Positions 5,702-6,730 of a stretch of 64,000 nt of DNA are shown here, piece by piece. The stretch's first letter is position 1; each line of letters begins with the position of its first letter. The stretch is from Acidilutibacter cellobiosedens (lineage in GTDB: Bacteria; Bacillota; Clostridia; Tissierellales; Acidilutibacteraceae). Both the position numbers and the translations under genes were made by a program. The notes beneath the pieces were generated by a model, which was given only the letters and a program-made list of their open reading frames with translations, was not told the origin of the DNA and did no database searches. The stretch is taken from positions 2,408,673 through 2,472,672 of the forward strand of contig NZ_CP035282.1 in the NCBI RefSeq assembly GCF_004103715.1. The letters run 5' to 3'.

Positions 5702-6730
5702 TTATTCCACTATAATTGAGTGGCTTTCTTTTTTTAATACTTCTCCAATAACATTATACTCAAGGGAAGTCCTTTCCAATTCTTTCAACAACACCTCTAA
5801 GTTTTTCCTCTCCAAAGAAATCAACAGTCCTCCTGAAGTCTGAGGATCATACATGACGTCCTTTATTTCTCTCGGAATTTCAGATTTGAAAAATACTTTT
5901 TCTCCCACATGTTTTTCATTGGAATAAGCCCCTGCAGGTACTAAACCCATTTGGGCATATTCCAACACATTTTTTATTATGGGTAAGCTTCTGTAATTTA
6001 TTTTTATTGTAACATTGCTTCCCTGTGCCATTTCCAAAGTATGACCTAAGAGTCCAAAGCCCGTAATATCCGTCACACTGTTGGCTCCCGCTTTAACTGC
6101 CGCATCTTTGGCTTCTTTATTTAATGTCGTCATAACTTTAACTGCTTCGTTATACGACTTTTCATCTGCCATTTCACCTTTTATTGCAGTATTTACAATA
6201 CCGATACCTAAAGGCTTTGTAAGCACAAGAACATCTCCTGATTTTGAATTGCTGTTGGTAAATATCTTATCAGGATGAACAAATCCTGTTACAGAAAGTC
6301 CATATTTCGGTTCATCATCTTCTATAGTATGGCCTCCTGCTAAAGCTGCTCCTGCCTCGTGAACTTTGTCATATCCCCCTTTAAGTATTTGAACCAATAT
6401 ATCCGGTGATAAACAATTTGGAAAACATACTATATTTAATGCCAATTTAGGTTCCCCACCCATGGCATAGACATCACTTAATGCATTTGTTGCCGCTATC
6501 TGTCCAAAAGTATAAGGATCATCAACAATTGGAGTAAAAAAGTCCAAAGTTTCTATTACAGCCACTTCATCGCTTATCCTATATACACAGGCATCATCAG
6601 AGGTATCGAGACCTACTATTATATTGTTATCATAAGATTGTGGTAACTGGCACAAAACTTGTGCCAAGGCATCCGGCCCCATTTTTGCTGCTCAACCAGC
6701 TTTTTTTGTCAATTGAGTAAGCCTGACCAT
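5702..6730 (-). CDS. selD: Selenide, water dikinase SelD, itself a selenoprotein (UGA at codon 13)
   Basis: SelD makes selenophosphate from selenide and ATP. An ordinary reading begins only at the ATG at 6680-6682, which would remove the catalytic N-terminus. Reading through an in-frame TGA at 6692-6694 extends the protein 16 residues to an ATG at 6728-6730 with a GAGGGA ribosome site. The N-terminus then reads [20 protein letters not shown]. This is the family's active-site loop, with Sec in place of the usual Cys and the essential Lys three residues later (U13, K16). A hairpin with the loop GTT follows the UGA. The glycine-rich ATP-binding region and the TSGGLL motif near the C-terminus are intact. 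Full length is 342 residues. The true start and Sec are inferred from family alignment, with high confidence. Confidence 0.93.
6648..6666 (-). promoter_or_regulatory. Candidate bacterial SECIS hairpin in selD
   Basis: On the coding strand TGGCACAA pairs with TTGTGCCA around a three-base GTT loop: eight base pairs, extendable by one T-G wobble. The stem starts 26 bases and the loop 34 bases after the UGA at 6692-6694. Bacterial SECIS elements place an apical loop with a conserved G at roughly 16-37 bases past the UGA, so position and loop both fit. The hairpin itself is seen directly; its role is inferred from the in-frame UGA and the adjacent selA and selB. Confidence 0.7.

Follow-up and report, generated by a model that had tools for sequence, protein, structure and literature searches.

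A selenocysteine codon and two adjoining mRNA hairpins predicted in selD of Acidilutibacter cellobiosedens

We analyzed a 64,000-nt stretch of the Acidilutibacter cellobiosedens genome (contig NZ_CP035282.1, positions 2,408,673 to 2,472,672; hereafter the window, whose own numbering is used below) and the gene within it for SelD, the enzyme that supplies selenium for selenocysteine (Sec). Based on sequence comparisons, we conclude that this SelD is almost certainly itself a selenoprotein, with UGA codon 13 decoded as Sec at the catalytic position. The UGA is followed by two adjoining hairpins, one proximal (P) and one distal (D), and both are very probably selected RNA structures tied to Sec. 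Sec-containing SelD is textbook knowledge and has been known for a long time. What is new, as far as we have checked, is a selected two-hairpin Sec insertion sequence (SECIS) element in which the loops of the two hairpins trade off against each other.

A UGA codon at the catalytic position of SelD

The features of the selD reading frame are as follows.

5702-6730, minus strand: selD, selenide water dikinase (selenophosphate synthetase), 342 residues with predicted Sec at codon 13; TIGR00476, 408 bits
6692-6694, minus strand: UGA codon 13, predicted to be read as selenocysteine; in the same place in all Sec homologs examined
6680-6682, minus strand: inner ATG, codon 17; the start taken by a naive open reading frame (ORF) caller, not conserved
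6736-6740, minus strand: GAGGG, likely ribosome-binding site of full-length selD, recognized by eye from the sequence

The in-frame UGA is at the active site. In the minus-strand translation, the frame opens with the ATG at 6730-6728, has a single internal TGA at 6694-6692, and ends at 5702. The product matched the selD profile TIGR00476 over residues 3-309, far above the cut-off of 125 bits, and AIRS and AIRS_C domains were detected. An initial annotation, made from the DNA letters alone, had placed the TGA exactly where SelD needs its catalytic Cys or Sec and had noted that the Lys three residues further on is kept. Alignment with Escherichia coli SelD (3u0o, the best match in the PDB) supported both statements: U13 aligned with Cys17 and Lys16 with Lys20. 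The SelD fold has already been solved for the E. coli and Aquifex proteins, as found among the PDB matches.

The UGA is conserved among relatives. We sampled 100 genomes of the same order, 94 of which had a strong match to SelD. Exactly one in-frame TGA was present in 87 selD genes from 86 of these 94 genomes, at codon 13 every time, and there was none in the other eight. All eighty named loci taken from genome assemblies had the TGA, including those of Tissierella, Schnuerera, Sporosalibacterium, Lutispora, Clostridium, and Desulfotomaculum relatives. In a phylum-wide set of distinct genes, 226 of 241 had the TGA and 15 had a Cys codon; this set was biased toward genes similar to the query, and the proportion is not an estimate of frequency. 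The same UGA together with a covarying hairpin (described below) in 86 relatives is the comparative evidence that decides for Sec in SelD.

It is extremely unlikely that the UGA is a true stop codon and that SelD begins at the inner ATG, lacking the N-terminal active site. Naive ORF calling does choose this start: the ORF list begins selD at 6682, giving 326 residues, as the initial annotation had said simple gene callers would. The annotation in RefSeq records of other Sec-selD genes runs across the UGA, so that only naive callers lose the N-terminal part. Homologs in close relatives that start at the inner ATG and have a functional Cys elsewhere would have counted against the initial annotation. 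We rejected the inner start because the codon was ATG in 2 of 124 genes with D and in 0 of 25 other Sec-selD genes; close relatives yielded no alternative form with Cys. A stop codon is also at odds with the N-terminal motif RLTQLTKxSG-U-AAK, which was kept in 226 genes with the UGA always in place, and with a genome that has no other SelD yet contains selA, selB, selC, and other selenoprotein genes with UGA.

Two adjoining hairpins downstream of the UGA

Three features lie between the UGA and position 6648.

6648-6666, minus strand: distal hairpin D, UGGCACAA-GUU-UUGUGCCA, the proposed SelB-binding bacterial SECIS (bSECIS) hairpin, based on folding, covariation, and synonymous shuffles
6656-6658, minus strand: apical loop of D, GUU; GU in 132/132 D-type genes, that is, genes with D
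6667-6679, minus strand: proximal hairpin P, GGGC-CGGAU-GCCU, a proposed spacer and probable selected RNA structure, which starts after 12 unpaired nt from the UGA and abuts D

D fits the consensus for a bacterial SECIS. The initial annotation had described a hairpin with a GTT loop 26-44 nt past the UGA, and it is there (TGGCACAA-GTT-TTGTGCCA in DNA letters, 6666-6648), with an 8-bp stem and its loop 33 nt past the UGA. As a description of the SECIS this was accurate for D and incomplete, in that a second selected hairpin lies between D and the UGA. The published bSECIS rules (PMC13188914) call for a loop of 3-9 nt, a stem of 4-16 bp, G in the first two loop positions, a distance of 16-37 nt from the UGA, and a minimum free energy of -7.5 kcal/mol or lower. 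D agrees with all of these (3-nt loop GUU, 8 bp, 33 nt, -10.7 kcal/mol). P has an allowed loop (5 nt, CGGAU), stem (4 bp), and distance (16 nt), and fails the energy cut-off at -4.7 kcal/mol. A scan of the window with Rfam gathering thresholds returned two tRNA-Leu genes and reported no SECIS match.

Folding of the single sequence gave mixed results. D folded alone had a z-score of -3.2, and 1 of 200 shuffled sequences was as good. In a context of 48-60 nt its shuffle z-score was unremarkable, and folds of 48-141 nt had z-scores that were near 0 or weak, so single-sequence folding is weak evidence.

Covariation supported the D helix. Among 82 distinct sequences from the order, 98.0% of the D cells had standard pairs. 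Double changes were found in 75 cells, compared to 17.6 in shuffled alignments (0 of 500 reached this number), and the covariation score was 0.42 versus 0.17 in the shuffles. The signal was lost when the 3' side was slid by 1-3 columns, and RNAalifold recovered exactly the D helix. Some of the pair changes altered the protein (AQVLC, SQVLR, AQVLS, AQVLG), indicating that the RNA constrains the amino acids and not merely the reverse.

Selection on both hairpins in genes with Sec

P is a hairpin of 4-6 bp between the UGA and D across genes, with two main alternative forms in relatives, ATCG-GTCC-CGAT and AGGT-CCTGAT-ACCT. Synonymous codon choices were coupled, in step with the form of P: the Ile codon ATC went together with the Pro codon CCC (counts of 28/3/3/47; Fisher p 4e-15), and both ATC and CCC are minority codons elsewhere in the same genes.

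P and D are each more stable than expected from the encoded protein and codon usage. We redrew synonymous codons from each gene's own usage in 400 random sets. In 124 D-type genes, none of the 400 sets was as stable as the natural sequences, for P or for D, and the same was true of P in 25 Sec genes without D (0/400). Eight genes with Cys had no signal of P or D structure in these shuffles.

The signal was confined to the hairpins. We scanned whole genes with a sliding window of 7 codons, holding phylogeny constant. The sole peaks in D-type genes were P (-2.9 kcal/mol) and D (-7.7 kcal/mol), with a next best value of -0.5, and D-less genes had P only (-3.9 kcal/mol). The replicate, with 112 other genes from the phylum, gave -4.0 kcal/mol for P and -8.2 kcal/mol for D versus -0.9 elsewhere, and P alone (-4.4 kcal/mol) where D was absent. 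Fifteen Cys genes had no peak at the position of P and D in the replicate scan.

These results bear on the proposal that the hairpins serve to control translation of selD or stability of its mRNA, with no need for them in Sec insertion. They fall inside codons 16-29 of an operon's first gene, which would suit such a role. However, they accompany the UGA and not the Cys codons at the same place, and a GU or GG loop downstream of the UGA is a hallmark of bSECIS elements. We consider a purely regulatory role very improbable.

A trade-off between the two loops

The presence of D was bimodal. Among the 226 Sec genes, 132 had at least 7 of the 8 pairs and 86 had no more than 5. GU occupied columns 37-38, the loop of D, in all 132 genes with D; in the genes without D, the Val codon was mostly replaced by Ile and GU was lost in 59 of 86. 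The proline codon in the P loop was CCG in 72 of the 86 D-less genes versus 17 of the 132 with D. With CCG, the P loop has GG at +16/+17 (CGGG, GGA, CGGGA), and this codon is otherwise rare among the prolines of D-less genes in the first set (18/289).

Loss of D and gain of GG were correlated on a tree. We built the tree with FastTree from one protein, leaving out the hairpin columns, and the state of D changed at least 14 times on it. There were too few pairs on supported branches, so a model-based test was used. A Pagel-type model of correlated change fit better than independence (likelihood ratio 30.2, p 4e-6), the gain of GG was about 17 times faster when D was absent, and the fit favored repeated loss of D over gain. 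The A. cellobiosedens gene belongs to the minority in which D coexists with a GG loop in P.

We consider it an evenly balanced proposition that the recognition loop can lie at about +16 or at about +33, that the effective distance is set by a spacer hairpin when the far site is used, and that repeated loss of the far hairpin with gain of GG in the near one amounts to relocation of the recoding signal inside the coding sequence in many Bacillota.

A proposed mechanism and its alternatives

We lean toward a mechanism in which D binds SelB, P is a spacer, and P takes over as the SECIS where D has been lost. The mRNA signal would be two adjoining hairpins, of which D, with its GU loop at +33, would be the SECIS bound by SelB. 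P, which starts 11-12 nt past the UGA, would fold away 12-14 nt and thereby leave D 11-13 unpaired nt from the UGA. In lineages without D, P would have gained a GG loop and become the SECIS itself. The linear distance from the UGA to D is 25 nt, reduced to 12 unpaired nt in this gene when P is folded, and with P folded there were 11-13 unpaired nt in 105 of 132 D-type genes. In D-less genes, P most often started 11 nt from the UGA (29/86). For comparison, 11 nt separate the UGA and the SelB-binding hairpin in E. coli (PMC8659212), and a ribosome shields about 11 nt of the mRNA in front of it (PMC4513850).

Several points weigh against this mechanism. P alone is weak in this gene, its stability falling short of the published energy requirement. 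The tree is a FastTree of a single protein, and when only pairs on supported branches were compared, none of the six had D and GG changing in the same direction and 3-4 had them changing in opposite directions, which is the right direction and not significant. The P of this gene carries GG alongside D, which makes both hairpins candidates for use here. The position of P is fixed by the surrounding codons, and the spacing of 11-13 nt is thus not an independent measurement. Finally, the mechanism is built on comparison of sequences.

The main alternative is that SelB binds P as the SECIS in every lineage, and that D, where present, is an accessory that might act, for example, in pausing or stabilization. 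P is at the canonical distance of 11-12 nt, occurs in both D-type and D-less genes, and has a GG loop in this gene. In addition, the UGA of grdB in the same genome is followed by a proximal canonical hairpin, GTTGC-GGT-GCAAC, whose loop is at +18; the SelB of this organism should thus be able to use proximal hairpins. On the other side, the P loop form GTCC is only at +13, compared to a D loop with GU in every gene that has D; GG in P is found mainly where D is absent; and D is far more stable and has strong covariation. We regard this alternative as unlikely but as one to be taken seriously.

A composite element, in which P and D are coaxially stacked and SelB touches both so that neither is a mere spacer, seems improbable to us. 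In its favor, P and D are selected simultaneously, and in P2-type genes column 28 is the last of P and column 29 the first of D, with zero nt between them. However, each hairpin appears to be dispensable for recognition: D was lost repeatedly, and the loop of P is variable in D-type genes.

Relation to known selenoprotein systems

Sec in SelD is widespread. SelD and FdhA have been named the two most widespread bacterial selenoproteins (PMC1794560), and in one survey Sec was found in 19% of prokaryotic SelD proteins, always at the same position (PMC4561486). The Sec-SelD proteins of other Clostridia (Clostridioides difficile, C. perfringens, and Peptoclostridium (Eubacterium) acidaminophilum) belong to the same family and have the same Sec position and machinery as the one described here. 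The selD genes of Clostridium sensu stricto and P. acidaminophilum differ in having the proximal hairpin only, in contrast to the tandem P and D in A. cellobiosedens.

The bSECIS consensus model describes one hairpin, and D agrees with it. In the gene studied here, the space between the UGA and D holds a second selected hairpin, and the recognition loop would be at about +16 or +33 across the phylum. The SECIS of E. coli fdhF (PMC8659212, PMC4513850) is a hairpin with G and U in its loop, about 11 nt past the UGA, features shared with the arrangement proposed here; binding by the winged-helix domains of SelB is described for fdhF. In fdhF, these 11 nt are a linear stretch that forms a lower helix, which is unwound, whereas in the present gene D is 25 nt away in linear terms and a separate hairpin would absorb the difference. 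We found no description of a tandem-hairpin SECIS with loop exchange in the openly readable selenoprotein and SECIS literature, a scope outside of which are the original bSECISearch and Eubacterium acidaminophilum selDABC papers, so that a prior description is possible.

If correct, the two-hairpin arrangement would explain how SelB serves UGA codons with recognition loops 16 or 33 nt away, and would offer a set of natural variants with which to test how Sec decoding gauges distance. It would also mean that a recoding signal can shift within an ORF while the protein stays functional, and it would improve selenoprotein predictors that rely on a single hairpin.

Sec machinery and other selenoprotein genes in the genome

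The genome has selA, selB, selC, and selD. Two of these genes are downstream of selD in the same direction, selA followed by selB, and selD would head a selDAB operon.

4262-5683, minus strand: selA, L-seryl-tRNA(Sec) selenium transferase; TIGR00474, 617 bits
2345-4255, minus strand: selB, elongation factor specific for Sec, with winged-helix domains at the C-terminus of the kind that bind SECIS elements; TIGR00475, PF09106, PF09107

The gene for tRNA-Sec (selC) is 759 bp to the left of the window (genome coordinates C1:2407821-2407913, minus strand). It was called by Rfam at 67.6 bits over the cut-off, and by ARAGORN as SeC with anticodon UCA. A histidine kinase and response regulator pair (183-2283, minus strand) is located between selB and the tRNA-Sec gene.

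SelD probably depends on its own product. The initial annotation had pointed out this dependence, and because no second full-length or Cys-type SelD was found in the genome (one contig, 98% complete), it applies in its strict form: the selenium-donor enzyme would need its own product. Two weak matches to SelD (28-31% identity) were set aside as paralogs of the AIRS family.

UGA appears to be decoded as Sec in other genes as well. The genes for GrdA and GrdB of glycine reductase, at one locus (C1, about 2716850-2717290 and downstream), have one in-frame UGA each, that of GrdB in the motif ILTST-U-GTCTRC, indicating that decoding of UGA as Sec is general in this organism. No clear canonical hairpin was seen in grdA. 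Within the window, selD was the sole credible gene split by a UGA in an ORF scan judged by eye; the other candidates were TGA codons that end ordinary ORFs or that lie in frames with no evidence of a gene.

Additional observations on selD in other genomes

Within the order, one family has Cys-containing SelD, as do some relatives of Clostridium, and the hairpins are gone from these genes. One of these Cys genes retains a sequence, GCTGAA-GTA-TTAAGT, that resembles a decayed D stem. A distant species of the order also has selD next after a comEA-like gene, the arrangement seen in the window; D is absent there and P is a 5-bp hairpin, AAACC-GGA-GGTTT.

selD is also present on plasmids. Plasmid pTM1 of Terrisporobacter mayombei (NZ_CP101638.1) and seven similar records from Terrisporobacter are plasmids of about 21-22 kb with selD, and selDAB was found on the one that was read. 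It is possible that these plasmids carry a mobile cassette for Sec decoding.

A gammaproteobacterial Sec-selD, from Photobacterium sp. DA100 (NZ_CP119424.1), has a P-like hairpin, GGCC-CCAA-GGCC, and a partial D-like hairpin, GCAG-GTT-CTGC. In a 2005 study (PMC1242214), SelD is among the listed selenoproteins of P. profundum and two SECIS elements from that genome are described as too divergent for SECIS searches; these may be related to the P-like and D-like hairpins of Photobacterium. Lastly, a 1589-bp record labeled as an Escherichia phage (OR845817.1) consists mostly of a SelD gene and is probably bacterial DNA.
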